From Sanghuangporus weigelae (lineage: Eukaryota; Basidiomycota; Agaricomycetes; Hymenochaetales; Hymenochaetaceae), in assembly GCA_033182465.1 (NCBI GenBank), contig CP137324.1, positions 744,001 to 808,000 on the forward strand: 64,000 nucleotides of DNA. The letters run 5' to 3'. A model generated the notes under the pieces. It did no database searches and was not told where the DNA came from. It saw only the letters and a list, made by a program, of their open reading frames with translations. A program made the position numbers and the translations under genes. Positions within the stretch are counted from its first letter, which is position 1. Each line of letters starts with the position of its first letter. Below, one piece after another: positions 12,143 through 40,382 of the stretch.

Positions 12143-12970
12143 AAAAATGAGTAAAAACCCTCTCGTCATCCTCCTTCTTCCCCCTTCTTCGTATAAAGAC
12201 ATTACCCCCTTGATACTTTTGATGCGTTGAATGCTTGAGCGTTACGCATCGTCCTTTCGTTTACATACACCTCTCCTTCCGCCAAACATCCTTCCTACGT
12301 ACAAAAACAAACACAGAACCAACAGTGGACGCTCCCCTTTTTACTGCTACTATTACTATTACTACTACTAACCCATGCTGTTATCAACACAAGGACACAT
12401 CATCATTCAATGTAGATATTTATCCTCCTATCTACTACTACGCTTTTCTTTCGCCTCTACGTACGTGGATTCTGATAATGTTGTTCAGACCCTTTAACAT
12501 TTTTTTTGCCTGGTTTTGATTTGATTTGATTTGATCGTTGAGACGACACTGGACAATTGAAGATCCTCATTCTATTCTGCTCGATTCGATTTTTGGCTTG
12601 GCTCGATTGGGGAACCTACTTATCAGCGATTCCCTATGCTGGGGCTCGCCTTCCTTGGTGTTCTAACTGAGGAAAGACCTTGTGTTCGGTCCAATGATAG
12701 TTAGATGCTGAGCGATACTGACCCTGACCGAGCGGCCGGCCGATTTGGCTTTAGCTTTTTCTGCACCTCGACGGCGTCCGTCGCAGTTCTGTTCATACAT
12801 ACTACAACTTAGTTCTTGTCCGTTCTCTCTCTCGGAATGGTTTGGTTACTTATCTTAGGCCGCCGGGACTATCATCGATAACCAACCAACTGCCTATTCA
12901 TGTATTCACAACAAATCATGTAAGGTTGTTGACGAGAGCCGGGATCGGCGATCGCTCTCTGAGTGAGCTG
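12143..12970. other. GH17 3' flank (template copy of a tandem duplication)
   Basis: There is no gene here. It carries the GH17 3' UTR, a (TAC/ATT)n-like stretch (12345-12372) and a TTTGA tandem run (about 12515-12535). From about 12044 (inside the last exon) to about 12800 the sequence is repeated in decayed form at 12971-13785. Confidence 0.65.
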
Positions 12971-13785
12971 TGGAAGGATGCGCGTTGCGCAGTCGTCAGT
13001 TTGGGTGGTGACTTTTCAACTCAGATCGGATGTTGAAGGACTAGCGGATTCCGGGATTGTTCGTCGTTACGTAAATGAGACGAGAATTCCTCCTCTTCCC
13101 CCTTCTTTATATAAAGACACTACTTTACTTGATACTTTTTTTGCTGCTGCGTTGAGCGCTTGGGCGTTACTACGTCCTTTCGTTTACCAACACCCCTTCG
13201 TCCAAACAAATATCCTTCCTCATCCTTGTAGTACGTACGTGCAAAACACAGACACAGAACCAGTGGAGTCTCCCCTTACACTGCCGGTACTATTACTACT
13301 ACTACTATCACTACTACTACTACTTACCCCTGCTGTTATCAACGCAAGGAAGGACACGCATCGTGTTCATGTACAGATTTATGCGCTTCTATCTACTACC
13401 ACACCTCCTTCTCGTCTGCCTTCGTTGTCATGCCAGTCGAGCTTCTGAGCGCTCCCCCCTCCCTAGTGCCCACTCTCTTCGCTCGAAAAATGCAAGAACG
13501 AAAGCGAGAAGCAAGCCAGAGAAAAAGAAATTATATGTCGTATTATTATTATGTTCGTTTGAAATAATGTTCAAGTTGCCATTTGGAGGTGTGATTTTGG
13601 CTTGAGCGGGTACACGAAATCGGTACGCACACATTGATTAAACAAATATTGTGATACGTAGTCCATTTGCATCCGAGTGCTGAGCAACACCGACCACCGA
13701 CTGCATAGGTTTTTATTTGTCTGTACCTTGATGGCGCCCGCCACAGCCGCTTTGCACGTAGTACATCTATTTCAGCTGCTCATAA
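12971..13785 (+). pseudogene. Decayed tandem copy of GH17 last-exon end plus 3' flank
   Basis: Beginning with GTGGAAGGATGCGC, identical to the GH17 last exon at 12044, this block follows the same order as the GH17 end. It has ACTTTTCAACTC, GGATTGTTCGTCGT (the codons around the GH17 stop), the CTTCTTCCCCCTTCTT run, TATAAAGACA, CCTTTCGTTTAC, CACAGAACCA, a TAC-repeat tract and CTGTTATCAACRCAAGG. A second shared block (GATGCTGAGC / GAGTGCTGAGCA) extends the match to about 13780. The copied coding part is short and mutated and has no promoter or domain, so it is a fossil of a direct duplication with a period of about 930 bases. Confidence 0.8.
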
Positions 13786-19817: not shown

Positions 19818-22800
19818 ATGACAGACGTAGACAATGCTTCCAAACGTACAACCGTTCCCGCGCCCAACATACATCGCCTGCCTGTTCTGCTTCCTCGACC
19901 ACATCCTCATCAGCCCATTCGTGCAATAGATGCCGAAGCCTTTGCAGACCTCCACCTCGCTCATCTCACCAGCGACGTTCCGGATTCAGTTCTCTTTCCC
20001 TTCCTTCATGGTCTCGAAGGTGACAATTATCAGCAGAACTCGTTCTTCGCTGCTACGAGTGGTCTTGACCTCGGACCTCGTCGCAGTGGAGATGCTGCCG
20101 GTAAAGATAACGGGTACACATATGCGTCCCATATGCATGCTCCGAACGTGGTCAAGGTGCCAGAATATCGCGGACTTGTGTGGGTCGCGTGTGACGATGA
20201 TGAGCACCAGTTGAACTCGCGTACTCGAGAACGTGACGTCTTGGACTCTGACGAGGACCTCGAGCTTGACTCTGACGATGATTACTACCAGGGTTCGAGC
20301 GAGGACGATGAAGAAGTAGTTGAGCATGGCGAGCTCATGCAAGTGGATGACGTTGATGTGCAAGTAGACGTCGTGACCGCTGATGATGCGCCTGCAACAG
20401 AGACGCAGCTTGATACTTCGTCAGAGGGTGAACATATGCACCCACAGTTGCTCCGCAAACCATCCCCTACGGCTCCGATAGCCATACACGCTACTCACAA
20501 CCACACATCGTACTTCACCTCGTCTCCTTCACATCACGCGAATACCCACGTTCATGGTGCGCAACCTGGACATACAATTAAGTTTCCCACTTCCGAGTCT
20601 TCACCTGCAATTCTAGATCCGCTTCCCGGTTCTGAGCAACAAGGCTCCGAATCGTACGACCGCCGTCTATCCACGTCTTCCGTCACAAGTTCTGATTCCA
20701 CTTCGTCCGTCTCAACGTCGGCTAGCGATTCCACTCAGTCGCACTATGGCTTTAGCACCAGTGCGAGTTACTCGACCACTGCTTCCAGTGTTGCGCAGCT
20801 TAAAGATCTGGACCCTGAAGTCGACTCCGACTTTCCCACTACTGATTCCCCGTCTATGGAATCTCCTATAGACTCCGACGCGACTGCCTTGACGACGCCT
20901 TGTACCAGTCCTGTGACTGATGTCGCCATTGATGATTGTATTCCAACAGTGGGTTCTGAGATGGAATCTATGAATCATGTTTTGCCTTCTGGGCCCGTTC
21001 ACACCAAGAGTGATACGAGCACAGCAACTGTCACAAGGATCAAGTCCTCAGCCGATACTTCCTGTGATTCAACTGTCATTCCTCCGCCGGATTTACAGAA
21101 AGTTAAGAAGTCGGACATAAGTCCGTTTGAAGAGGAGGCGGCAAGACTCACCATTGCGTCTTCATTTCGTGCGAATGACCTTCTGACAACCGATAGCAGA
21201 AGCGGCGAGTGCGTCTTCGTGTCTCCGCAAGTGCCGAGCGGGATCAGCTTGCGAAATTTTGGTATCCAAGTGGTAAGTTTCTTGATGAGTAACGTATTTC
21301 TATCTCTTGTCTGCCGGCCTTGATGGATGAACGATTCATCAACCTTTGTTGAGAAAGAAGGGTGGATGGTTTGATTTACGAGTTGCATATATGCATATTT
21401 GTCTGCCCCGGCTTTCTCGGCAATTAGCTCCGGACATATGCTTACAACTGTCTTGTTTTAGCCAATCTTTGCGACACTTTCCGATATCGTCGTTTATAGC
21501 CGGAAGGCGACTCCAGCGGCAACTCGAGCAGCATTCGCACTGGCTGAGAAGCTCAAGCTTGCGATTGAGAGAAAAGCGGCGGAACGCAAGAGGAAATATG
21601 AGGAGGCGGGTGTGAAAGTCGAGTGGCTGCATAACGGACAGTATGGCCAGGTGAAGCCATCTGAAGAGTTGGGCAAGGCCTCGAGTCATGGATCTTTTAG
21701 TAAAGAGGATTCAATGGAGGTGGAAGACGGTGGATCATACGCCAGTTCACAGGAGACCATCGATATGACTCACCCTCGCGCATATCTCGTTGCATATAAC
21801 GTCTTCGTTCTAACTGATCCTCTTCACGTCCTCGCTCAAAAGGCACCCTGGCTTGTTAATCGTCTTCCGGATCCTAAGGCAGAGGATCAGGACGATGAAG
21901 AGTTCTCTGCTTCTCGTCCTCGAGCAGCAGCCGTGAAAGGTGAAGGTAAAGATCATGCGATCGCTCCGACAAAGTCTGATGGAACTTCAAACGATTTCAC
22001 TGCGGAACATCCGCCACGAGCTACGGTCCTCCCAGCTATCGATTTTGGTCAGCGTGAACGTGACGAGATGCGTGAGCTAACGAAGGCGACGGAGATCATT
22101 GATGACTGCGTCTATTTGGGAAACGTCAAAGATTGCGTACCACCGTACCATTCGCGCGTAGATATCGAATCAGACTATGCGCGATATAAATGGCTCCGGG
22201 AAGGAGAGATCGTCAAGGATTTGACCTACCAGGAGAAATTCGGTGATCCGTTCGACAGCTCCGATAATCCAATGGGATACGATCTTTGCATCGAGTGTCG
22301 TGATCCCGCTTTATTGATAACGGACGATCAAATCCGTGCCGCGGAATCGCACTTCGCAACTCTCGATAGGCTGTGGTCGGCCAGACATCATGCCAGTGCC
22401 TCCACTAGCGAAACATCATCCTCCTCTTGTCCACCGCGCCCTGCTCCTTCCGCATCTGCTGTTCTGCACATGACATTTCCTGCTTCTCCACCCTGCTTAA
22501 CGTATACGCACTGGCATGTGATGCCGTTCCTTAATTTCCTTGCTGGTCTCGTATCGCCGCATCAGAACTCACCTTCGACGCGACCGAAGCGCATCTTGAT
22601 CTACAGTGTAGATGGCTATACAGAGAGCAGTGTACTTGCTTTGTTCTTGCTGATGAAGGTTCGCGGGTTGAATCTACCGGAGGCGTATCTAGAGCTTCAA
22701 GTGAGTTATATATTCCACGTATTTGGAGTGTGTGAAGTCTTCTTTGATCTGCGTTTTATGTGTTGGTTGCTTTGAGCTCCGTTTAACTTTGGTGGCCTGT

Positions 22801-24017
22801 TTCCCGTTGAATGATGCTGACTCTCTTCTCATCTTCTGGCAGGTTAATAAGGGACGTTCGTTCTTTGTCTACCAATCGGACCTTACGATCCTCAAACGTG
22901 TCGAAACACAACTGAAAAAGGAGCGCGCTAGTTTGGCCGCGTCATCGTCAATCCTCCCACCCCGGAGTCTTTTGTCATCACCAGTTCCGGGCCGCGTGGA
23001 ACGGCACAGTTGGTCCCGTACCTGGAGTTGCGCGCGAGAAACTGGTCTTTCCCACCCCTACGCTCGTTCTCCAAGCAACTCAGTAAGCTATCCCACTTCT
23101 GGGGTGCATGAGTTCGCGTCAAGCGCACCACCTGTTATCGTCCCAAGTCAAGGACACGGTGAATTCTCTTCGCCCTTCCCGAGGCGCCCGCGAGCACAGA
23201 CGAGTCCTTTCTTGTCACCTCATGTTGATCATCAAACTTGGTTTAATGATCCTCGATTTGACGGAAGCTTCCCTAGTCGTGTCTTACCGTTTTTATATCT
23301 TGGCAATCTGTACGTCAATCCGCCTAATTGCACTGATACATTTGCTGAAATTCATATCCGAACTTTTAGTGCTCATGCTCAGAACGCATACATGCTTCAT
23401 GCGTTAGGTATCACGCATGTTGTATCTGTTGGAGAATGCGCTTTGGTACCTCCGTCCAACATTGCGACTGATGGCTCTTCGAGCGGGTACCATTTGGTCT
23501 CTACTGGTGGACACGGTTCTTTGTGGATGGAAGAGCGGGAAGGACGCATAAAAGTCTTAGATATAAAAGGCGTCTGTGATGACGGCATTGACAGTCTGCA
23601 ACACCAGTTGGCACCTATTTGTGATTGGATGGAACGTGCTCGTGAAGAGGGCGGGACGATTCTGGTCCATTGTCGGGTTGGTGTGTCTCGAAGTGCAACA
23701 GTAGCCGTATGTTTTCAAGTTCTATAGAAGGGATATTCTTACTGAATTCATTGGATTTTGACCAGATTGCCTATGTTATGAAACATCTTCAAATCCCGCT
23801 TGTGGACGCTTACCTTATCGTACGGTCTCGCCGACTGAACGTCCTCATTCAGCCGAATATGCGGCTTCTTTACAATCTCTGCGGTTGGGAAGTCGACCTT
23901 GCTCGCGAACGCGCCAAGGGCGATACCAACAAACTCCGACGCGAACTGGCACGAAGCCTCAACTGGCCGTACCTTGCGCGCGAGGTGCATAGATTGAACG
24001 AAAAGTACTTGCATTGA
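19818..24017 (+). CDS. PPS1: PPS1-type dual-specificity protein phosphatase
   Basis: Yeast Pps1 is a dual-specificity phosphatase linked to S-phase checkpoint control. Four exons (19818-21272, 21462-22700, 22843-23706, 23766-24017) sum to 1269 residues; yeast Pps1 is about 800, and the excess is a long disordered acidic/Ser-Thr N-terminal region. The C-terminal catalytic domain has VLPFLYLGNLYV, an Asp-containing loop, and the signature ILVHCRVGVSRSATV, the intact HC-x5-R cysteine-arginine loop. IQPNMRLLYNLCGWEVDLA follows, the Pps1 hallmark. Before it lies a second phosphatase-like unit (DDCVYLGNVKDCVPP ... RILIYSVDGYTESSVLALF) whose P-loop lacks both Cys and Arg, so it is probably a pseudophosphatase module. 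The start is the first ATG in frame. Confidence 0.92.
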
Positions 24018-24848: not shown

Positions 24849-27800
24849 TCACCGCTTTTCGCGAACGTAGAAGTGCAAGAGTAGCCAGGTCAGCATGGTG
24901 AACGACCCGAAGAAAATTCCGAGCAAAGCAATGTTCGGCCACCAATATGACTGCGCAAGAGATAAACAAAAGAGTTAGAAAAAGAGAACGAATCAGTAAA
25001 CGAGGCAGCAGGGAAGGATAGGGGCTACGTAGGCGGAGTAAATAAGGAAGGACACGCACCTGGGCACGGAGACCAAATATGTTAAGAATGGTCGCGGCCG
25101 GAACGTCAATTTCCACACCGTACTGATAAATAAAAAAAGAGAGAACCGAAATCAGCAACTGTGAAAATAAAACAAAAAGAACAAAGTTGGAGTGTGTAAG
25201 AGTGTCAGGGGGGAAGAAAGAAGCAAGCCAAAGAAGCGAAGAAGGAAACATAGAGTTCGGGGGAGAAGCAACGGCTTTAAATACTCACCCGTCGCTCTCT
25301 CAGTTGCAGGTACCGTAGTTCGTTGACAGCGAGGGCCTCGAACGCGGCGTGGAAGAATGAGATGGTGCTGAGCCACTGCGCTCGCCCGAGCGACTCGCGA
25401 TTGATGAGCAGACCGGCAAAGAGTAGACTGGGGTGGACGGAACATAAGCCTCGTGGTACAAGGAAAGAATAGGGATGGTACTGCTACGTACTTGAATAGC
25501 ATCACGAGCGTGCCCACGAGGCTAGCCACGCCTGTGCTCGCGAAGGCGACGGAGATGCAAAGAACTGCGCTTGCAGTAGCCAAATTGAATAGGACCAGAA
25601 CGAGCAAGAACTTCCAGAATGTAGCAACTTCCGGCACAAGACCGACAAGCCGATATATAATTGCCCCGAAAACAAGTGGAGGTACGACTCGCAAAGGTAT
25701 AATATCGAACAGAACCTAGAATAGCATGTTTAGACGCATGGATAACACGTTGCTTCGGAACTTGCCTTGGACGCGAAGTATGTAAATGACGAGTAATAGC
25801 GGTTTGCTCTGTAGACAAGTTGTAGAACACATGGATTCAGAACGGACAAACTCTATGACGAATAACGACGATCACACCTTTCGCGCATGTATAGAAGCCG
25901 CTCGTTAGCGAATAGACCGATAACAGATAGGCACGAGAATCCAAATAGGGCCAGGGAGAAGAAGAAGACACCTTAAAATCATAGGAAAGGTCATGATGAG
26001 TGCAACGGAAGCACAAATCCGCGATGAAAGCGGTACCTAATCTGTTCTGGAAGCCCCTAATGTCATTGCTGTGGGATAAAGGAAGTTAGAGGGTTCTTAA
26101 AGGGTCTCGAGCATACAAATGAGGGATCACTTGCCCGACAGCTTGGAAGAAGAACCCGCAGATTACTGTGAATCGAGACCACCTCAGTCAGCACGCGACC
26201 TGAAATACATAATAATAACTCACAAGCAAGCGCGATGGAAGACAAATAATGTGCCGCAAGCAGCATGGGATCACGATACAAATTCTTGAACGCCCGGCCG
26301 CTCAAGATGCGGAACTGTGTTAGCCAGCTGGCACCACGTCGACCTCGCATTAAGCGGTGTTCCTCAACGACATTGGGAAGCTCATCAGCTGGGTCGCGAT
26401 TCGAAATGGACTCTATCTCGGCTCGGATACCGGCGGCAATGTCACTCGCGGTGTATGCTTCGACGAGGGCCGCGACCTGCGGGGAAAGCGGTGCATTCCC
26501 CTTATGCTGATTACCCCTGATCGTGTCGATGAACTGCGAAGTCTTTCGTTTGACGAAGCCAGAGGAATCAGACACAATAGAACCGCGGCGTGACTGCAGC
26601 TCGGTCTCATCAGCTTGTGTTGACTCCGTGCCGTTCCCACTTGAGAAGTGTGAGTGTGAAGACCTCCCATTTCCTGACCGCGAAAAGCCACGCTCTTCAT
26701 CGGCTAGACTTGAAGAACCTTCTTGTGAAGGCGGATCTACATCAAGAGAAGCCTCATCTCGTGAACGTGACTCTACGTTGACGTCGCTCGTCAAGTCAAC
26801 TGGGAGAAAGAAGTAAATGCATCATTGCAGGTTTCTACGAGCCTGTTCTAGTTTGCACTTACTCAAGTAATCGGCTAGGTTGAACCCTGGAGGGCATGCG
26901 CAACCAGCGTCTGCCAGGAATTCGTGGCATCTAGATACGTCTCCAGAATAGACCATTCTTCCCTGAGCAAGCAAAAGAAGCTGATCAAACAGCGCGACAA
27001 TATTGCTCCTCGGCTGATGGATCGTGAAGATGACCGTTCTGTTGTAATTGCGCGCCAGAGAAACCAGACTATCTATGACGTTGAAGGCATTGTACGCGTC
27101 CAGACCTGCGGCGGATATTAGTGAACGATCCGTCTTCGCATGTTCCCGTACAAGAAGCACAGAACCAACTTACCACTCGTAGGTTCATCAAGGAATAAAA
27201 TAGACGGACTAGTCACAAGCTCGCAGGCGATAGAAACACGACGCTTCTCCCCGCCAGAAATTGATCGGTGGCTAGAGTCGCCAATTCGCATGTCTCGAAT
27301 GCCGAGGATCCCCAGTTCGTTCATAGTCTCGAGTGTGCGATACTTCTTCGCCGCTAGACTCATGTCGCGCGGAAGTCGAAGCAAAGCGGAGTACAGGACA
27401 GTCTCATAAACGGTCAACGTGCTCATAAGAGTATCCTCTTGGTCGACGAAGCCCACAAAACGTTTGAACTCGCTGTCGGTAACGTCCCGTCCATTCACTT
27501 TGATATTACCGCCAACAATACCCCTCTTAGATCTTCGTGCGAGTATATCCAGGAATGTCGTCTTGCCAGCTCCAGACGCGCCCATAATTGCCATCACCTG
27601 TCCTGACTTCACACATCCAGTTATATCGGAAAGGATCGTCCGCGAACCCAAGGTGTACGAGATGTCGGAGAAGTGAAGCGACGCGGGAACGTGCTCGTTC
27701 ATGAGCTTGTAAGCCTCATTCTCTGGCAGATTGATCTCGCCTAGGTGCTTGCGGTCCCGACCAAGGTACCAGAACACTAAAAATAACATTATCACAACTT

Positions 27801-29337
27801 TGAAATGGATCAAACAGAAAGACGCGTACGGAGGAACGCGGATAATACGAACAAAATAGCCCCTGCTACGCTAAGGGCTACGAAGCGAGTACTGTTCGGT
27901 GGAGGTGGGGTCTGTGGACTCTGAGAGTAAAGAGATTAGTCATGGTTTGAAATAAGGACTAAGAACCGTACTTACTTTATATCCAGGAACTTGAGAATAA
28001 TGCAGACACTCGCCACTATTACATTTCAACGCAATGAAGTTATCGCCGAAGAACATGTCGATGAGGTCGTTCATTCCTGGTTCCTCAAACCTGCAGCCAG
28101 AATCTGCTTTACATGTGTATTTTGCAGGCCCTTTTATCTCGGTGGCAAGGAACTCCGTAATGTCTAAACATGATCAATGCCAATGCAGCTGTTCCATGGC
28201 CAGGGATCACTCACCGAGACTTCCGTCCTCACCACAGATGAAACGACCAGGTATACAGCTGCACTTGATGTTCTCGCAATCATAACTTGTCGTTCTCGTG
28301 CCGGACGTCCGGTCAACTTTGGACGTGCACGTATCAAGTCCGCAATAGAATGATTCGACTCTGTTCACCCAGAACTGGAAGAGGCAAGTAGCTTTGTCTT
28401 GATCACAGCTGAACGTGACCTGTGGCGGACGATCAGGAAGCATCGCAATTATTCCGGTATCTGATTACGGTCTAGACGTTGAGTATTGAACGAAAGAATA
28501 GAGGAAGACCGCAACGTACTAGTAACATCACACATTTGATGATTTGTGAACACTACGTCGCCGCCTTTGTAACATGTCATGTTTAGAGGCTCATCGCCAC
28601 TTCTGCTAGGTAGTGGCGATTCTCCTCCAGGAAGAGGGAAGTTCGTGCATGCATCGTCGGTTTCGCACACTAAAAACAATTTTATATTGCTTCGGTGAAG
28701 TGAAGTTAAATAACGATAGCACGAACCGTTGCAGTTTATTCCGCCCCACCCCTCCTTACACGGACATTCTTCATCACCATTCCACATCTGACGGTGTTCG
28801 CCATCCGCAAGCGAATCACATTCTTCCATCATTCATTAGCCTTGTTCAGACAACCTGGGCCAAATATGAGGGACTTACGTGGTGTAAGGCAGTCAATGCC
28901 GCCCCAGCCTGCAGGACAATTGCATTGACCATTATAAGTGTCACAGTCTCCATATTGTCCGCAGGTGAACGCAGGCAGAAGACAGTTAAAACAGGGCGGG
29001 CAGTCCTTCGGACGATCATCAACTGGAATAAACGGAGAAGCGGAGGAAAGATTTGGTTAGACTACACGAAGATAACCGGAAGCAATGAAGACGCACCTAA
29101 AGAGGGAGCAATGGCTAACGCCTACATTCCAATACGCGATCTGTTTAGCACTAATGTTCGATGCACGACGAGTGATAAAGGACAACTCACCGATAACCTA
29201 TAGCTTTCGTCCGCCCGTATCCAGCTCGTAAAGTTCCGGGATTCCATGGATCGCGCCAGCGCCGAAGACGAAAGAGCGAATAGAATGAGGCCATTCCTTA
29301 GCTTCCGTACAGAATACATGGTTCGCCTCGAGGTCAT
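24849..29337 (-). CDS. ADP1: ADP1-type ABC transporter (ABCG-like half transporter with EGF-like luminal region)
   Basis: This is an ABCG-type half transporter related to yeast Adp1, substrate unknown. After a signal-like N-terminus ([14 protein letters not shown]) come two EGF-like units ([24 protein letters not shown]) and further cysteine-rich luminal text ending [15 protein letters not shown] membrane span is followed by the nucleotide-binding domain: Walker [10 protein letters not shown], signature [15 protein letters not shown], Walker [14 protein letters not shown]-loop TIHQPRS. A charged serine-rich linker leads to the ABC2 membrane domain (LIYRDP-like [20 protein letters not shown], then several spans) and ends [11 protein letters not shown]. 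All catalytic motifs are intact. There are many introns. The start is the first ATG of the frame, 338 bases from the divergent MFS ATG. Confidence 0.92.
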
Positions 29338-29674
29338 GGCGGTCGTTGAAGGTTGAACTTGAAGTGGACACAGTAACCTGAAGGCGCCTGAACCGGGCGA
29401 TGATGCCGTCGGTCACGTGCAACATCTTTGGGCGCAGCATAACCAACCGACGACCTGATTCCATCCTTATCGCGCCCCGGCCCGCGATAGGTATAATTTT
29501 ACTTTCGACTCCATGTCTTCTACTTTATAGGTCTCCGAATGGTTTTGTTCCCACCAAGAGGGTGTGGACCTATAACCTATAAATGCTGTCTATGCTATCC
29601 GAACCCAGAGGTCTTCTTGAAATTTTCGCTCTGCAGCCTGCTTGCTTGGCTCTCTCTACGGCTACAGTGGGAAA
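29338..29674. promoter_or_regulatory. Divergent promoter of the ADP1-type gene and MFS copy 1
   Basis: The 337 bases separate two opposite ATGs. The MFS-proximal part (about 29475-29674) is similar to the upstream region of MFS copy 2 (about 36971-37158, reversed). Shared pieces are GGCCCGCGAT, CGACTCCATG, GTTTTTGTTCCCACCAAG-like text, AGAGGTCT and TTGCTTGCT, so the promoter was duplicated with the gene. Confidence 0.6.
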
Positions 29675-32324
29675 ATGGCTTCGATTCAACAACAAAGTTT
29701 GACAGGTCTTGAGCTCAGACACCATTCAAAGGAGAAAATGGACTCGAACTTGAATATACCCCTTGATGAAAAGACTCCAACGATTGAGTACTCGTCTGAT
29801 GAAGCCTCTATCGATGCGGGGGATGGCGACGAAGCACTAGCGCTTGTTGGTATGCGTCGGACAGCACAATTCAGCGAGGAGTACAATTTGAAGCTGCGTA
29901 AGAAGCTTGCACGTATCCTTTTCCATCCTTTTTCGTGGGATCTCGCTCATGTCTATTGTCTGTCTGCTCAGGACTGGGTGATTGCTCCTTTGAGCGCTGC
30001 GGTGTATTTCACTCAGTACCTGTAAGCAATGACTCCTTTTAGCCTGTCTGGACTGTATGAGAAACTTGATACTTGCTTTCTAGTGATAAGACGTCCCTGA
30101 ACTACGCAAAGTACAAGGCCTCTTCTATGTAGCTTACAAGCTCTAAATGCGAGCAATAGCATCATGGGATTTCCCGTTACCGGACAGGTCAGAGAACGGG
30201 CTTTCCCTAATCGTTCCCCTGGCTGATGAACGGATTCGCCTTAGAATTACAATCTCGTCGCATTAGCCGTCTATGTAGGCAAGTACATGTGATGATTGTT
30301 TCGAGGCAGCTCTCTTACAGTGGTTTCAATCTAAGGATATTTCATTTGGGAATTTCCAACCCAATTTATCGCGCAGAAGCTTAGGCTTGGTAAATATCTT
30401 GGTGAGTACTAGCATAGTGGAATCAGAATCAGGAACATCGAATATCCACGTCTTTCAAGGCGTCAACGTCGTTCTCTGGGGAGTCATCTTAATGCTCCAG
30501 GCTATTCCCACCACGTTTGCACCCTTCTTTGTGTTGCGCCTTCTTCTAGGTATCTCAATCACTTCCTTTCAAAAAGTATGATAATACTCACTTCCCTTAC
30601 ATGACGCGTGCGGTCAGGGATGCTTGAGAGTTGTGTCGCTCCGATCTTAGTCCTCATCATTTCTATGTTTTACAAGAAGAACGAGCAGGTATGTTTACAC
30701 ACGTGTATACTAGGAAACTTTTGCATAGATCACTTTTCCGAAGTCCCAAAGAATTGCATGGTTCTATGTGATGGTATGTTCTTTAGTACTTTTTCTTTGC
30801 TTGCATAAAAGTTATAAAACATTATCAAGATTGGTTTGGCCCCCGTCTTCGGAGGTTTCGTTGCCTATGTGAGTTGATCTCGTCTTAGATATTCTAATAT
30901 TGTTAATGAAATGCTTTCAGGGGATATCCTTCGATTCAGACAAGGATTTTGCATCCTACCGCATTCTGTTCCTTATGCTCGGGGGTCTTGCTGTAGTGGT
31001 CGGTATAGCCGTTCTCATTTGGATGCCTGACTCTCCGGTGCTTGCAAACATGCTGACGCGCGAGGAGCGTATCGCTGCTCTTGAACGTGTTCGGGATGAT
31101 CAATGCGGGACGGAAAACAAGACCATCAAGAAGGCACAGATCATCGAAGCATTAACGGATATCCGGACATGGTTGGTTGTACTTTCAACTCTTGTCAGTG
31201 CGTATATATACACATCTTTTTGCCTTGTGATTTGGGACACAATCGAATCGTTCTCTTCTAGCGAACATCCCAAACGGGGGATTGGCGAATTGTAGGTTGC
31301 TCATCAAGAAATCCTTAATGATTCTAATCGGGCGACTAATCATGGCTTCTAAGTTGGCTCTATTATCATAAAGGTATCAGCGTACAGAATATCATGAAGA
31401 AAGTTTATACTGATTTTGCGCGAACAGAACTTCGGCTATACGTACGAAAGCACAGATTGATCTTCTCTAAAATGGCGCTGACGTCTGACATAGGTCCAGG
31501 CAAGCTCTGATTCTTGGAACTCCTGGAGGTCTCATTGCAGCAGTCGCAACACTGGTCTTGGGTTGGTACGCTGATAAAAGAGTAAACTGAATTACTTTAT
31601 TCCAAACTTCCTCGCGTCAATGATGAGTGTCTCTGTAGAATGAGCGGATGATCCCTATTGCCCTATCGCTAATCCCCACGATCGTCGGAGCAGCTATGTT
31701 GATTGGTCTGAATGAATCAGGAAAGAAGGGAGCTCTCCTTTTCGGCAAGTCGTTTCTTCGGTCATGCTCGTGCTGGGGGCCTGAACGATCAACATCCATT
31801 GTTCTTTAGCGTCCTGGATCGTAAACTTCGATGGTTGTGCACTTGCACTTCTTTATGCATACAACGCGAGCAACACTAGCGGACACACAAAGAAAGTCAC
31901 GGTAAATGCAATGACCCTTGTCTCATTCAGCTTAGGAAATGCGATTGGAACAGAGACTTTCTTACCCAAAGATGCTCCAGGTACGTCACCTTTCGGGGAA
32001 AACTGAGGATGCCACATACGATTGAGCTGCGGTTAGATTATCTGCCGGGAAAGATATCGATGCTTGTCCTACTTTCATCTCAGTTGTTTATCTGCTACAT
32101 TCTCCGTTTCATCAATCTCCGCCTAAATGCGAAGAAACGTGCTCATATTGCAGCACTGAAAGCAAGAAACAGGTGGTCAGACGAAGATATTGAAAGGGAG
32201 CGAGAGAAGCACGCTTTCCTTGACCTAACGGATATTCAGTGAGTTAAGAATTACTTTGCGCATAATGAAGAGACTGATTCTTTTCCTTGCGTACAGAAAC
32301 CCTTATTTCATGTACACTGCTTGA
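29675..32324 (+). CDS. MFS permease, Dal5/allantoate-permease family, copy 1
   Basis: This is a plasma-membrane anion:cation symporter of the Dal5 type (allantoate, ureidosuccinate, nicotinate or related carboxylates; substrate not predictable). About fifteen small exons join in frame to a 12-span protein. Family blocks are SLNYANIMGFPVTGQ, YFIWEFPTQFIAQKLRLGKYLG, GMLESCVAPILVLIISMFYK, WFYVMIGLAPVFGGFVAYGI, IWMPDSPVLANMLTREER, TNIPNGGLANFGSIIIKNFG, TPGGLI and ASWIVNFDGCALALLYAYNA. It ends LTDIQNPYFMYTA. Three introns have GC instead of GT donors (29909 GCACGT; 30279 GCAAGT; 31745 GCAAGT). The first intron is 63 bases without a stop, so retaining it would add 21 residues in frame. There is no disabling lesion if the GC donors are used. 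Confidence 0.87.
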
Positions 32325-32423
32325 CGACGGTCCGATTGCTCATGATACTTTAACGGGATAGAAATGCAAGACGTGTGATGAAGTGTGAATAGCTCAGGCT
32401 GAGATTGGATTAAACATATAAAT
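32325..32423. other. MFS copy 1 to epimerase-remnant spacer
   Basis: This short tail-to-tail spacer corresponds to the 90-base spacer at 34237-34326 in the other arm. Confidence 0.6.
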
Positions 32424-32843
32424 CTAAGTGAGCTTCTTTTCCTCATGAGACACCTTATGCACCCATTCAAATACTCTTTGAGCTTTGTCGCTGCTAACAA
32501 AACTCGAGTGCCCCTTAAGCTTAAACTCATCTTTCACTGAATTTTTTTCGGGAAGAATCGCTCGAGCAGTTCAGCATTGAGACGCTCGTCAGCAAGGTCG
32601 GGAGAATCGATGAAGAGCGCTTCATGCTCTTTCTATCGATCTTCTTCGGCTGTCAACAAGGGAAGAGATACGTCGGCTGCAGCGTTTACGAGGACCCACC
32701 CCATAGATCTGCACGACGTGCGTCGGGCAGTCGTGTTCAGCGTGTAATCGCGATAGAAGAGCTCAATGAAGACGGAGAGTCTCAATGCAGGCCAGCAATG
32801 CATGATGCATCCTGCTATGATCCTGAATACCGTGTCGGATGAA
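32424..32843 (-). pseudogene. Decayed copy of the last exon of the NAD-dependent epimerase gene
   Basis: Read on the minus strand, this matches exon 4 of the intact gene at 33822-34236 in order. Matching pieces are RLSVFIELFYRDYT against SLRLHWALPSRLHA, GWVLVNAAADVSLPLLTAEE against GWVHVDAAAAAFLLALTAEE, SPDLADERLNAEL LERFFP against APDLADEHTSAELLGRFFP, and SSDKAQRVFEWVHKVSHEE against CSDKAQRVLGWVHKVPDAEE. It has a stop after LLTAEEDR, a length change near FFPKK and no upstream exons, so it cannot code a working enzyme. It retains the ATTCAG of the former acceptor site near its start. It marks one edge of the inverted duplication. Confidence 0.88.
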
Positions 32844-33176
32844 TTAAGTTGTTTGCCCATTTAAGAAACGACTCTCTCGTATGTATTATATAATACGAAG
32901 TTACGCAATGCATTGCCCTCGTAAGTACGTATTCTGTGCATATCTGGCATATCTATTCTACTATTGGGTCCTCAATCTTGTTTGTTCACCTGACGTGTGT
33001 CACTTCTAGACGAGGCACCGATTATGTTCCGCTCTCATATTACATTATCAATCCTGAAGTTCTTGATTCTATTTGATTGAAAAGAGATAAGGAACTCTGG
33101 GTGCCTTGCTCCTCGACTTGGAGCCCTCAGCTTCTCCACTTTCCTCGGACCAGATAGCATTCAGAGTGTTGCTAAA
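32844..33176. other. Centre of the inverted duplication; epimerase upstream region
   Basis: No open frame is supported. An AT-rich segment (TATTATATAATACG near 32884) and the 5' UTR/promoter of the intact epimerase lie here. Confidence 0.5.
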
Positions 33177-34236
33177 ATGAAGATTGCTGTTACTGGGTGC
33201 AACGGTCGCATCGGGCGTCACCTCGTTGTCCACTGTCTGAACGAGGGACATGCTGTTGTCGGTATTGACCACGTGGACCCGATTTTGGATGAAGTTGCTG
33301 TTCGGAGAGCTGAAGAACACGAAGCCTATAGTTTTGTCAAGGTCGATCTGCGCGAATATGACGAAGTTGTTAGAGTACTCAAAGGATGCGATGCTATCGC
33401 ACACTTGGCTGCGTATCCGAATCCAGGAGACTATGTTTGGCGGACACATAACAGGTGCCTGTTACATTTTGTTGCATTTTTGTTCTAACATCGCTATACG
33501 TTATGTTATACAAATCAATAGTAATGTTGTCATTTCGTGGAATGTGCTCCGCGGGGCAATGGAGGTCAACTTCCCATTTCTGCTTCTGCTTAAAACGGGG
33601 AAGTGATCTTCCTCCTTCAACAGCTCGGAATTAAACGTATAGCTCAAGCTTCAACGTGCAACGTCGTGCAGGGTGTCTACAGCAAGAACGGTCCAAATCC
33701 TGAATACTTCCCTATTGATGAGGACCATCCATGCGAGCCTGATGAGCCATATGGCCTTTCCAAATTGTGAGTAGTTTCTCGGATGAAACAACAATCCAAT
33801 TTCTCTGATATTGGCCTTCAGGATTGCAGAAATGCAGGCAGATTGTATCGTGCGTCGCTGGCCGGACGTGCGCATTGCGAGTCTCCGTCTTCACTGGGCC
33901 CTACCGTCTCGATTACACGCCGTACGTGAAAACCCAGAAACACATCGAGCAGATCTTTGGGGCTGGGTCCACGTGGACGCTGCAGCCGCTGCGTTCCTTC
34001 TCGCGTTGACAGCAGAAGAAGGACGATGGAAAGGACATGAAGCATTCTTCATTGCTGCTCCCGACCTTGCTGATGAGCATACCAGCGCTGAACTGCTTGG
34101 ACGATTCTTCCCGAACGTTCCTTTGAAAGAAGGAAAGAAGCTCGAGGGGTGCGCGAGTCTTATTTGTAGCGACAAGGCTCAAAGAGTACTTGGGTGGGTG
34201 CATAAGGTGCCTGATGCGGAAGAGATGTTTACGTAG
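33177..34236 (+). CDS. NAD-dependent epimerase/dehydratase (extended SDR)
   Basis: This is a sugar-nucleotide-epimerase-like short-chain dehydrogenase; substrate unknown. Four exons (33177-33454, 33522-33564, 33624-33766, 33822-34236) give 292 residues. The start MKIAVTGCNGRIGRHLVVHC contains the Rossmann G-x-x-G-x-x-G. Further marks are the adenine-binding acid (GIDHVDP), VDLREYDEV, the AHLAAYPNP loop, ASTCNVVQG and the catalytic Y-x-x-x-K in PYGLSKL. The C-terminal half has RLHWALPSRL, GWVHVDAAAAAFLLAL and APDLADEHTSAELLG, as in fungal members. The gene lies tail to tail with MFS copy 2, 90 bases between stops, and is the intact parent of the fragment at 32424-32843. Confidence 0.92.
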
Positions 34237-37158
34237 ATTGATATGTTTAACCTATTTTCGCGCCATGCATTTAACCCCCTTTCTGCATTCCATCAGTATT
34301 ATCAGTACATTGCAATCCAACGGCCATCAAGCAGTGTACACGAAATACGGATTTCTAGACGGGAGGCAAATAATCAGTTTCTTCATGTTATGGAAAAGTA
34401 TTTCCTAACTCACTGAATATCCGTTAGATCAAGGAAAGCGTGCTTCTCTCGTTCCCTTTCAATATCTTCGTCTGTCCACCCGTTTCTCGCCTTCAGTTCT
34501 GCAACATGAGCTCGTTTCTTCGCATTTAGGCGGAGATTGATGAAACGGAGAATGTAGCAGATGAATAACTGAGAGGCAAGTAGGACGAGCATTGATATCT
34601 TTCCCGGCAGGTAGTCTGACATAAGTCAGTCATGAGCACCTTTCTCGAAGTTTAGTGGGTCCTGAAAGGGATCCGCACCTGGTGCATCTCTGGGCAAGAA
34701 AGTCTCTGTTCCAATCGCATTTCCTAAGCTAAAAGAGACAAGGGTCATTGCATTTACCGTGACTTTCTTTGTGTGCCCGCTGGTATTGCTCGCGTTGTAT
34801 GCATAAAGAAGTGCAAGTGCACAACCATCGAAGTTTACGATCCAGGACGCTAAAGAGCAACGGAGATCAATAGTTAAGCTTCTGGCATAATAGCGGCTGA
34901 GGGATTGACTTGCCGAAAAGGAGAGCTCCTTTCTTTCCTGAGTCATTCAGACCGACCAACATGGCGGCTCCGATAATCGTAGGAATCAACGATAGCACAA
35001 TAGGGACCATCCGCTGATTCTGAGAAGACACTCGTCAGTGATCTAAAGAATAAAATCAAAATGAATCAATTCACCCTTTTATCGGCGTACCAACCTAGGA
35101 CCAAAGTCGCGAGGGCTCCAACAAGACCTCCGGGAGTGCCCAGAATTAGTGCTTGCTTGGAACTATGTTAAATGTGAGCGTCGCTTCGGAGATGATTCAT
35201 ATATACTTTCGTACGTATAGCCGAAGTTCTGATCACATAGAATCAGTACTAAGTTCGCTTCGTAATATGTTCTACGGATGCTGATACCTTTACGATTATA
35301 GAGCCAACTGTAGGCCACGGTTAGCGATCCGATCTCAATCAGTGGAGACAGCACAATAACTCACAGCTACCCAGTCCCCCGTTCGGGATGTTCGCTAAGA
35401 GAGCACCATTCATTTGTGTCTAAAGACACGGCGTAACAAGCATATGTATGTACTCACTGACCAGAGTTGAAAGTACAACCAGCCATGTCCGGATATCCAT
35501 TAATGCTTCGATGATCTGTGCCTTCTTGATGGTCTTGTTTTCCGTCCCGCATTGATCATCTCGGACACGTTCAAGAGCAGCGATACGCTCCTCGCGCGTC
35601 AGCATGTTTGCAAGCACCGGAGAGTCAGGCATCCAAATGAGAACGGCTATACCGACCACTATAGCAAGACCCCCGAGCATAAGGAACAGAATGCGGTAGG
35701 ATGCAAAATTCTTGTCTGAATCGAAAGATATCCCCTGAAAACATCTCATTAACATTACCAGACAAATAAAACGAGAACAACTCACATAGGCAACGAAACC
35801 TCCGAAGACGGGAGCCAAACCAACCTTGATAAAAATTCAGGCAAGTAGAGAAGAAGTGCTGAGGAACATACCATAACGTAGAACCATGCAATCCTTTGGG
35901 ACTTCGAGAATAAAGCGATTGGCTCAAGGTCTTCCTCATATAAATGTCTCTAAACATACCTGCTCGTTCTTCTTGTAAAACATAGAGATGATTAGAACCA
36001 AAATCGGAGCGACACAACTCTCAAGCATCCCTGACCATACGTATAATGGTCAGTGGGTATCGCCATACTTATTGAAGGAAGTATTTGATATACCTAGAAA
36101 TATGCGCAACGCAAAGAACGGAGCAAACGTGGTGGGAACAGCCTGGAGCATCAAGATGACTCCCCAGAGTACGACGTTGACACCTTAATAGACACGGACG
36201 TGGATATTCTGTTGTTGACTTCCTCAGGCCGAGATTCACTATACTCACCAAGGTATTTACCAAGCCTCAGCTTCTGCGCGATGTATTGAGTTGGAAACTC
36301 CCAAATGAAAAATCCTTGGATTACAACTATTGTAAGAGTGTTCTCTCTTTCAGAACAATTACTAAAGGCGCTTACCAACATAGAAGGCTAATGCAACGAG
36401 ATTGTAATTCTTTGGCGAGATCGTTCATCGGCGAAAGGACTTTTAGGGCAAACATGTTTGCTGACCTGTCCAGTTATAGGAAATCCCATGATGCTGTATA
36501 GAATTAATTATTGTCTGCTATGGTACACAGAAGAAATCGAGTACCTTGCATAATTCAGCGACGTTTTATCGCTAGTGAACAAGTATTATACATTTGTGGC
36601 GATGCAAACCGGCAAAAAGGAGGGAGTTCTTGCTTACAGGTACTGAGTAAAATAAACTGCAGCACTCAAAGGAGGAATCACCCAGTCCTGATCAGACAAA
36701 AGACATGAGCAAAATTCTGCGAAAAGGACATTGGAGACTTACAAGCTTCTTGCGCAGCTTCAAGTTATATTCCTTGCTGAATTGTGCAGTCCGACGCATA
36801 CCCACAAGCTCTAGAGCCTCGTCTCCATCTGTCGCATCGATAGAAACTTCATCAGACGAGACCTCATATGACGGAGCCTTTTCATCTTGAGGCATGTTCG
36901 AGTGCATTTTCTCCTGAGATTGGTCTCTGTGCTCAAGATCTGTGATGCTTCGTTCTTGGATCGAGGCCATTTGCGGCTGTATCCACGGACGGTAGCAAGC
37001 AAGCTATAGAGCGCAGACCTCTGGAGGCCCTCCGGCACCAGATAAGAAAGACAGCAGGTGTAGAATGACTTCATTATGCCGACTTGGTGGGAACAAAAAC
37101 CAATAAAGCAGGAAGCATGCATGGAGTCGACAGTTAAAAATATAATCATCGCGGGCCG
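33815..37158 (-). repeat. Right arm of the large inverted duplication
   Basis: It contains the last epimerase exon, MFS copy 2 and its promoter in mirror order to the left arm. Identity with the left arm is uneven: one MFS exon (35458-35734 against 30921-31197) differs at about 8 of 277 bases, while the first MFS exon and introns are much more diverged. Confidence 0.88.
34327..36970 (-). CDS. MFS permease, Dal5/allantoate-permease family, copy 2
   Basis: This is a close paralogue of copy 1 with the same exon layout and an intact frame. It starts MASIQERSITDLEHRDQSQE and keeps GFFIWEFPTQYIAQKLRLG, GMLESCVAPILVLIISMFYK, GLAPVFGGFVAYGISFDSDK, NIPNGGLVGSIIVKNFGYTS and DYLPGKISMLVLLASQLFIC. It ends NPYFVYTA. 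The first intron has a normal GTAAGT donor, unlike copy 1, and contains a stop. One intron (donor at 34913 on the minus strand) keeps the GC donor GCAAGT found at the same place in copy 1. Copy-specific changes cluster in the N-terminal cytosolic tail and in the TPGGL-to-Y-A-D-K segment, so substrate range or regulation may differ. Confidence 0.87.
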
Positions 37159-37480
37159 GAGAGAACTTTAGATAACGACATGGCGGAGTGGGCCCGTCTT
37201 GAACTTATGGCCAGGCGCATGATGCACAGTAACTGTACATGTTGCAGTTGCGGGCAATAACTCTTACTTGTTGAGCGCGATTCGATTGAAAGAAGACGAA
37301 AACGCAACTTTGATTATATAATGACACGGATCGTAAGAGCGTCGATCACCGGCTTGTGTCGGCAATGGCTGCAGGTTGAGGTTCACGCGCTCTTCTGACT
37401 TTACCTCTTGCCCCACGGAATTTGCAGGACCTCATCTTAGACTATTTCACGCTATCTTCACCTTGTAGCCAACATAGACA
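37159..37480. promoter_or_regulatory. Upstream region of MFS copy 2 and the AVT-like gene
   Basis: This divergent intergenic region between MFS copy 2 (-) and the AVT-like gene (+) includes an AT-rich TTATATAATG at about 37313-37322, some 160 bases before the AVT ATG, which could act as a TATA element. Confidence 0.4.
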
Positions 37481-40382
37481 ATGTCCTCAAACCCTTCTCG
37501 TCCGCTAGACATCTCTTCTCCACGACGCAATCCAGATGAATTTGCCTCTTCCTCTGTCCGACAAACATCGGGCAGTCCAGCATTTCGATCTGGCACACCC
37601 ACGGCACGTCTGGGTGTTGCCAGAGCAGGTACACCATCGACACCGTCGATAGCCAACATACCGCCTCGGTTTGGTGGCGACGGCTCACCCGCAAGTGGTG
37701 GTGGTCTTCCTGCAAGCTTTAGCGCTCGTTCGCTTCGTCCGCGGACTCCGCAAACGAATGGATCGGATACTCCTATAGGAGTGCCTCTAGGTGGAAGTCC
37801 AGCAAGTGGAAGGTTGAATCTTGATGATGTGACGGATGAAGAGATGGCGCGTGTACTACGACGGCATCTCGTTCCTCGTCGTGGTGGGGACGCGAATGCG
37901 GATGAAACTCCTGCGGAATCAAGCCGACATGGGTCCGCTTCGGCATCGAGTACACCAAAACAAGTTCCCCAACGGGAAGATTCCGACTCATTTCCAATAC
38001 CGTTTGACGCTCCCGGGGGTGATATAACGTATGTATTGTTACTCTTGATAATCGTTCTACATACTCAAGAATCTACGACAGACATCCGATATACAAATGG
38101 CAAGCAGACCAACACCGCCAGGTTGCGCGTCCACGTGCAGCATCGTTCAATTCGCCACCCCCAGAACCGTTACATTCTCCACACACTGCATTCGAACACA
38201 TTCGAGAGCCGGGTGGCTTCCGGCGAAATTATGTACTCCATCGGGCCAACCAGCAGGGTGTAGAAGAGCCTGCCGTTTCAAATAATTTCATTGAATTCCT
38301 GTATCTTTTCGGACACTTCGTGAGTTTCGGACTTTGACGACGCCTATTCACATGATCTCATGACTGAGGGTCATTTTATCAGGCTGGTGAAGATCTAGAA
38401 GAAGATGAAGAAGATGAGGAGGAGGAGGCAGTCCTCCAAGGTGATCAAGAACAGGCTCTAGCGGCTCCTTCAGGTTTGTTATTAGCTCAAATAGATATTT
38501 ATCCGTTATCATTCAGCCTTTTTCTATTTTTAAAAAACTTTAGAATATGGAAGAGCACCGGATTCTATCAAGACTACGGAGACTGCGCCACTCTTGGGTT
38601 CTCGATCAATAAGCAAACGTTCACTCTCAAGGGCCAAGCGCGCGGCGCGTCGAAGAAGTGTTGGCCCTGATGCTCACGGAGACGCGACCGTGACACAGGC
38701 TATACTTATGGTGAGATTAATACTAGATATGATTTTCCCCCTCCACCTGACCCTCTTGGTAGCTTTTGAAATCTTTCGTTGGGACAGGTGTATTATTCCT
38801 AGGCAAGGCGTAAGTTTGATTTCGATAGCTATACGCGTTCCTTTTGGTTATATGTGACGCTTTTATTTAGCTTCTATAACGGCGGGATCTTATTTTCTTC
38901 CATTACTATGACTGTCATTGCTTTAATATCGCTATATTCTTTCTTGCTTCTCGTGAAAACGAAGCATGTCGTACCTGGTAGTTACGGAGGTAAGTGCTCG
39001 GTTTCAATCCACTATGTCAGGTGTTCATGCTGAATGGGAACATCAGATATTGGTGGCGTTCTTTATGGCCCTTGGATGCGCTATTCCATTCTAAGCGCCG
39101 TTACTTTGTCGCAATTGGGCTTCGTATGCGCATATACGATATTCGTTTCAGAGAACCTGCAGGCGTTTGCGCTTGCCGTTTCGCACTGCCTGCGCCTTAT
39201 ACCAGTGCAATATTTCATTCTGATACAACTAGTGATTTTCTTGCCACTGGCTCTTATCCGTAACATCGCCAAGCTGAGCTCCGCCGCTCTGGTTGCGGAT
39301 GTATTTATCCTCGCTGGCTTGGTGTACATATTCGGAAGCGAGATTGCTATTATTGGCAGCAGAGGAATTGCGAAAGTCGAGCTTTTCAACCCGAAGGACT
39401 TCCCGTTGCTTATAGGGTTCGTTTCTCATGGCTCATTTGGTTATAGGAGAGTAGATTCTGACTTGAGATTGCAGAACGGCTGTGTTCTCGTTCGAAGGCG
39501 TGGGTCTGGTGCGTCCTAATTACATCGGGTGCTCTACATGTACTCATGGAACACTATACATTTCAGGTTATCCCTATTTCGGACTCTATGCGCGAGCCGC
39601 GCAAGTTTCCGGCAATTCTTACAGGCGTTATGTTGTTCTTGATTGGTGAGTCTGAGAGATTGTTGATATTTATTTAAGTTGCACGTTCTCGATGACTCAT
39701 TCTACACCTCCATTTTAGTCCTTTTCGGTGGTGGGGGTGTCCTTGCCTACCTTGCGTTCGGTCCGGAAGTCCAGACAGTGGTGATTACGAACCTAAACTC
39801 AGAGAGCAAGCTCGTCCAAGCCGTGCAGCTCCTCTACTCGCTCGCGATCCTATTGTCTGTACCGTTGCAGTTGTTCCCGGCCGTACGTATCATGGAGAAT
39901 GGCCTATTCTCGCGCAGCGGGAAAGGAAATCCTGGGGTAAAATGGCGGAAAAACTTCCTGAGATTCGTGATTGTTATTGGATGTGCCTTGATTTCATGGG
40001 CGGGAGCAAGTGATCTGGACAAATTTGTCGCGCTTGTTGGGAGCTTTGCCTGGTCAGTCGGACATTTCGTGATATACTCTGTTCTAGAGCTTAGCTGATT
40101 GAACACTGACTTTAGCGTACCTTTATGCTACGTATATCCGGCGATGCTACATTATAAGGCTTGTGCACGGTCACGCCGAGCAAAGGTTGCTGATATTGCG
40201 TTAATGATCTTTGGCACCCTTGCTGCTGCCTACACGACCATCCAGACCATCGCGGTGCGCGCTATACTCCTTCCTACCTTTATTCATCCAGATCCACTGA
40301 CCTGGAATTACAGTTGATGGCAACGCCTTCGGAAGGCAGTCCTACTTTTGGGAACTGTGACAATTCCACTCCGCGTTCTTGA
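37481..40382 (+). CDS. Vacuolar neutral amino-acid transporter, AVT3/AVT4-like
   Basis: AVT3/4 export neutral amino acids from the vacuole to the cytosol. Twelve exons (37481-38028, 38082-38319, 38383-38473, 38544-38710, 38763-38809, 38871-38989, 39047-39416, 39475-39508, 39567-39645, 39719-40052, 40116-40254, 40314-40382) sum to 744 residues. The long polar N-terminal region (about 340 residues, S/P/G-rich, with an EEDEEDEEEE run) is typical of the subgroup. The AAAP core begins LLKSFVGTGVLFLGKAFYNG and continues with GDIGGVLYGPWMRY, FEGVGLVIPISDSMREPRKF, LAYLAFGPEVQTVVITNL and AILLSVPLQLFPAVRIMENG. About eleven spans are seen. The last short exon is the least certain join. Confidence 0.92.

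Follow-up and report, generated by a model that had tools for sequence, protein, structure and literature searches.

An old inverted duplication of an MFS permease gene in Sanghuangporus weigelae, with a probable gene-conversion tract in one exon

The window, a stretch of 64,000 nucleotides of Sanghuangporus weigelae, contains one strong inverted pair, detected by self-BLAST at 29477-32788 against 37159-33872 (E=0). Local alignment extends this pair, and the locus consists of two arms and a centre, with the following genes and gene remnants.

29477-32874, plus strand: left arm, probably the derived copy (self-BLAST and local alignment)
32875-33768, no strand: centre, 894 bp, with epimerase exons 1-3 and their upstream sequence
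33769-37159, minus strand: right arm, probably the original unit, with the epimerase end and MFS-B
29675-32324, plus strand: MFS-A, 19 exons, 534 aa, DAL5/anion:cation-symporter type; hand-built homology-guided model
34327-36970, minus strand: MFS-B, 19 exons at positions matching MFS-A, 532 aa; hand-built homology-guided model
33177-34236, plus strand: intact NAD-dependent epimerase/dehydratase (extended SDR), four exons, GT-AG introns, 292 aa
32424-32874, minus strand: epimerase remnant; its last exon is decayed (alignment at 32424-32845), and intron 3 is kept in part

The BLASTN alignment of the pair has 2618 identical columns out of 3367 (78%) and 134 gap columns. Local alignment under two scoring schemes pushed the inner arm ends to 32874 and 33769, giving an arm length of 3.4 kb. 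These inner edges fall just inside epimerase intron 3, of which 33769 is the third base. The inner stretch beyond the BLASTN end scores 24; 200 shuffles gave scores of 12.4 on average and 21 at most. The outer flanks align at chance level (score 14, equalled in 69 of 200 shuffles). The large inverted duplication proposed in the initial annotation is thus borne out by the self-alignment. The similarity is not restricted to the protein level over the MFS exons, as the promoter, the introns and the epimerase end align too, and the locus can be directly recognised as an inverted (palindromic) gene duplication by its opposite arms and by similarity that goes beyond the coding sequence.

Genome-wide searches covered 33.87 Mb in 13 contigs, the window lying on contig C7. 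A GC content of 49%, the short introns of the MFS genes and the genes present suggest a fungus, most likely an agaricomycete. Counting its own position, the query 29400-33900 matched three places; the two others are the opposite arm (78%) and a site on contig C4 (68%). The centre had been described as unique and about 970 bases long; it is unique, its single match in the genome being itself, but its measured length is 894 bp. A search for tandem arrays returned nine rows, none of them inside the arms and none that could explain the duplication, and a search for tRNAs likewise found none that could explain it.

Transporter genes lie on both sides of the duplication. The gene on the left, adjoining MFS-A on the minus strand (approximately 25150-29320), which we take to be an ADP1-type ABCG transporter, has an ABC_tran match at 27118-27813 and a weak ABC2_membrane match, below the cut-off, at 25152-25694. 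No Pfam family was matched by its cysteine-rich stretch at 28.4-28.8 kb. The gene to the right of MFS-B, on the plus strand (approximately 37481-40098), has two Aa_trans matches (39034-39519 and 39679-40098) and encodes an amino-acid transporter. The window also contains an ORF with a dual-specificity phosphatase domain at 22723-23727 (PF00782, E=5.5e-10) and a pair of direct repeats (12078-12441 and 13004-13402, approximately 70% identity). The TAC triplet stretch of the second repeat (13288-13327) has short matches to contig C4 around 2333208-2333367, the only ones elsewhere among the matches listed.

A short string is shared by the promoters of the two permease genes.

29477-29485, plus strand: CCGGCCCGC, at -198 of MFS-A, outer edge of the left arm
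37151-37159, minus strand: CCGGCCCGC, MFS-B promoter, outer edge of the right arm

The string has no other occurrence in the window, where 0.42 would be expected from base composition. The same string is found at -246 of the MFS paralog on contig C4, and may act as a regulatory element common to these genes. Since the BLASTN alignment terminates at this string, the string may also determine where the arms appear to end. A spaced pattern of the promoter string has one match genome-wide, in the MFS-B promoter, this pattern being too narrow to fit even MFS-A.

The same modelling of the third paralog, on contig C4, gave 19 exons and a protein of 529 aa. MFS-A, MFS-B and the C4 paralog have 18 introns in common, and the introns of MFS-A and MFS-B are 47-68 bp each. 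No stop codons occur in the coding models of MFS-A and MFS-B. A protein search of the genome with MFS-B yielded 47 exon-level matches, with identity of at most 43% outside these three genes. MFS-A matches the MFS_1 domain PF07690 with 94.6 bits (cut-off 33.4). The nearest NCBIfam model for MFS-B is TIGR00893 (2A0114), a bacterial/archaeal model which we take to represent the ACS family, and the score of 191 bits is below its cut-off of 395. Among solved structures, SV2B (E=1.2e-4) is the sole chain with a sequence match at E <= 0.001. The permeases thus resemble the fungal DAL5/ACS family (DAL5, TNA1 and related proteins) in having the MFS_1 domain and in having TIGR00893 as the best NCBIfam relative. 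They differ from the curated subfamily in failing to reach its cut-off, and the assignment is one made through profiles. Many lineage-specific duplications of DAL5-family permeases in fungi are described in a passage of one earlier study (PMC2329640).

Both MFS copies had been reported to read intact through every intron. Both are indeed open over 19 exons, but intron 1 of the left copy has no GT donor. Three introns of MFS-A start with GC (GCACGT in intron 1, GCAAGT in introns 5 and 16), compared with one in MFS-B (GCAAGT in intron 16) and none in the C4 paralog. The GT donor has been lost in intron 1 of MFS-A (29909-29971), where GCACGT stands against GTAAGT in MFS-B. With its 63 nt this intron keeps the frame and contains no stops, so that the mechanical ORF continues through it, and it is possibly retained. 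MFS-A could thus either use a poor GC donor or keep intron 1 and gain 21 residues. The corresponding intron of the C4 paralog is also 63 nt long and reads without a stop; that of MFS-B is 55 nt long.

The intact epimerase resembles extended SDR proteins and NAD-dependent epimerases/dehydratases in its match to PF01370 (E=4.5e-26, 92.2 bits, cut-off 20.9) and in the presence of TGxxGxxG and YxxxK, which we take to be the extended SDR motifs. Its best solved chain is the SDR oxidoreductase 8rdg (E=2e-12). However, it reaches the cut-off of none of the 24 listed NCBIfam families. A genome search with the epimerase protein gave five matches at E <= 0.001, three to exons of the intact gene and two to the left-arm remnant. 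The gene is intact only once, in agreement with the earlier description of one working and one dead epimerase: the alignment used shows four insertions and three deletions in the remnant relative to the intact last exon, and all three frames of the remnant contain stops. The left arm does keep a decayed last exon, as had been noted, but not that alone, since part of intron 3 is present too.

The arms are strongly diverged. The introns differ between them at 310 of 848 scored sites (37%), and since short diverged introns were aligned pairwise, even this intron identity may be inflated. Fifteen perfect inverted matches of at least 20 bp are found between the arms, the longest being 97 bp. The promoter and the epimerase end have diverged as well. 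For MFS-A and MFS-B, dN is 0.049 and dS is 0.37 over the whole gene, and these values become 0.070 and 0.54 when exons 11, 17 and 18 are left out. The low dN/dS indicates purifying selection on both copies, a constraint that is read directly from the substitution counts. Amino acid changes unique to MFS-A number 26, and those unique to MFS-B 16, a difference that is not significant (chi-square 2.4); the unique nucleotide changes number 67 and 64, respectively.

The initial annotation considered that such a palindrome would be recent or maintained. In this case the arms would have been copied recently, or kept whole by arm-to-arm gene conversion, and should be nearly identical throughout, introns included. 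The almost complete identity of exon 11 and of parts of exons 17 and 18 across the arms is what one would expect under this hypothesis. However, the introns, the silent sites outside these three exons, the promoter and the epimerase end have all diverged. The hypothesis was rejected because of the intron and silent divergence, and we consider it hardly credible. Judged by these differences, the inverted duplicate is old and decaying; it did not arise recently, and its arms are not being maintained over their full length. In this it is unlike the nearly perfect, maintained inverted repeats described for Caenorhabditis in parts of another study (PMC1803023). We give practically no weight to an assembly artefact or to a merger of two alleles into one contig. 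Divergence of 22% between the arms and of 37% between the introns far exceeds that of alleles or of a misjoined repeat. In addition, the centre matches once in the genome, and the epimerase remnant and the intact epimerase have had separate fates.

The decay of the remnant is directly visible and close to neutral. It differs from the intact last exon at 26 of 136, 31 of 136 and 41 of 134 sites in the first, second and third codon positions, respectively. The first two positions together differ at 57 of 272 sites (21%), compared with the 21-23% expected under neutral evolution since the duplication, the expectation being derived from the intron divergence (JC distance 0.50) with a constrained partner (omega from 0 to 0.1). 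The third positions (31%) are somewhat below the level of the introns, which counts against the neutral fit. On the whole, the divergence is about as expected and fits a remnant that was dead from birth. Because of this fit, the right arm is probably the original and the left arm the copy.

Exon 11, which at 277 bp is the longest, is an exception to the divergence of the permease genes. MFS-A and MFS-B have 5 silent differences at 68.8 sites in this exon, compared with 84.5 at 219 sites in the gene without exons 11, 17 and 18. The comparison with the C4 paralog is saturated in exon 11 (51.5 differences at 68.0 sites for MFS-A, 52.2 at 67.8 for MFS-B), with 76-77% of silent sites different, compared with 71-73% over the whole gene. 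Nonsynonymous differences between MFS-A and MFS-B in exon 11 are also few, 3 at 210 sites (p=0.011 in a Fisher test with the remainder of the gene). No significant correlation between exon length and silent difference was observed over the 19 exons (Spearman -0.36, p=0.13).

We scanned the pair for segments of 5-140 sites with few differences. As silent sites we took third codon positions wherever MFS-A and MFS-B agree in the amino acid, Met and Trp being dropped; from the introns, gap columns, the first six and the last three bases were dropped. The best segment over 455 coding sites, 30844-31169, has 3 differences at 85 sites, and its score was equalled in none of 300 shuffles. When the 848 intron sites were added, the best segment was 30932-31169, with 2 differences at 73 sites (none of 100 shuffles). 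The shuffles treat silent sites as exchangeable, although twofold and fourfold sites are mixed. The candidate regions are as follows.

30932-31169, plus strand: inferred gene-conversion tract in exon 11 of MFS-A, approximately 240 bp; its partner is in exon 11 of MFS-B, inside 35458-35734
31803-31873, plus strand: candidate for a second patch, shorter than the first, where exon 17 begins; 71-bp perfect match; not established

The flanking introns are diverged, with 10 of 42 sites different in intron 10 and 20 of 54 in intron 11. The contrast between the tract (2 of 73) and these introns (30 of 96) has a Fisher p of 7e-7, for a tract that was itself picked by the scan. At fourfold sites only, the contrast is weaker: 4 of 50 in exon 11 against 51 of 186, p=0.004, uncorrected for the choice of one exon out of 19. 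Other segments are not established. The score of the segment in exons 16-17 was equalled in 19 of 300 shuffles with coding sites only and in 3 of 100 with introns; for the segment in exon 18, which has a 50-bp perfect match, the respective numbers are 153 of 300 and 24 of 100. Thus local silent identity in exon 11 is far above that of the rest of the pair and is not shared by the outgroup paralog, as is characteristic of interlocus gene conversion, the signal being weaker at fourfold sites. The near-identity of exon 11 is probably one exon-sized tract of such conversion. This patch is an addition to what the initial annotation had observed.

One alternative is unusual synonymous constraint, caused by a regulatory or RNA element overlapping exon 11. 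It would account for the low silent divergence between MFS-A and MFS-B in this exon. However, exon 11 is not a slow exon, because the C4 paralog is saturated there, differing at silent sites no less than over the whole gene, and the fourfold contrasts of MFS-A and MFS-B with the C4 paralog are not significant (p=1.0 and 0.38). On these grounds a slow exon 11 was rejected, and constraint is very improbable. In a variant of the same idea, the element may have been gained solely in the ancestor of MFS-A and MFS-B.

Another possibility is that reverse-transcribed, spliced mRNA of one permease recombined into the other, replacing exons 10-11 and perhaps 17-18 and leaving the introns untouched. Indeed, the best coding-only segment covers both exons 10 and 11 in spite of the diverged intron between them, and silent differences are few in exons 17 and 18 (8 of 54 and 10 of 60) around the very diverged intron 17 (23 of 46). 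However, the silent sites of exon 10 number just 12, neither the second nor the third segment is established by the shuffles, and no intron has been lost from either MFS copy in the models. Moreover, a very similar pattern would result from ordinary conversion held back by diverged introns; conversion is mostly reported from exons, according to parts of a Caenorhabditis review (PMC3966223). A literature search for cDNA-mediated conversion between paralogs found nothing directly relevant, which is no claim that exon-only conversion is unpublished. We consider the cDNA route unlikely and prefer direct interlocus conversion of exon 11.

According to passages of the same review (PMC3966223), conversion is usually reported for exons, and diverged introns may impede it. 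Inverted neighbours also undergo conversion, and the lengths of the tracts that survive are concentrated at 50-200 nt; for one set from C. elegans, lengths of 12-2,958 bp with a mean of 117 are given. Those passages also contain contrary observations, namely tracts including introns and the suggestion that same-orientation pairs convert more often. Ectopic conversion among paralogs of one chromosome region is described for Aspergillus in part of another paper (PMC12844118). The pair considered here is like the adjacent inverted duplicates with conversion in the cited parts of the Caenorhabditis review (PMC3966223): inverted neighbours, a short spacer, conversion in an exon, and a tract within the reported lengths. 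A tract of approximately 240 bp in the longest exon is thus compatible with the Caenorhabditis pattern.

The following history can be proposed. The ancestor would have had a convergent pair, an epimerase on the plus strand facing an MFS permease on the minus strand. A one-time inverted duplication of approximately 3.4 kb, from the MFS promoter to epimerase intron 3, would then have been placed in reverse to the left of the epimerase, presumably by a template-switch or fold-back repair event, with copying probably from the right arm to the left. The new arm would have received a complete MFS gene with its promoter, now MFS-A, and a headless epimerase end, dead on arrival. Subsequently the arms would have drifted, with both permeases under purifying selection. 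Later, as the silent sites suggest, interlocus gene conversion would have overwritten about 240 bp of exon 11, stopping short of the diverged introns. Confinement to the longest exon is expected if diverged introns limit pairing. Both permeases may have been retained through dosage or mild divergence, and they probably take up small organic anions of one shared class. We assign a probability of about 0.85 to this account as a whole, that is, a one-time inverted duplication followed by drift, with a constrained MFS pair, a dead remnant and local conversion of exon 11.

The locus is best regarded as an unremarkable old inverted duplication carrying a probable local patch of conversion, and the candidate long palindrome can be taken off the list of unusual structures. 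On a small scale, it illustrates the ageing of a duplicate pair rich in introns: the introns and the dead fragment drift, the permeases stay constrained, and probable conversion is found in a long exon, where homology remains. Exon 11 would mislead the dating of the MFS-A/MFS-B pair.
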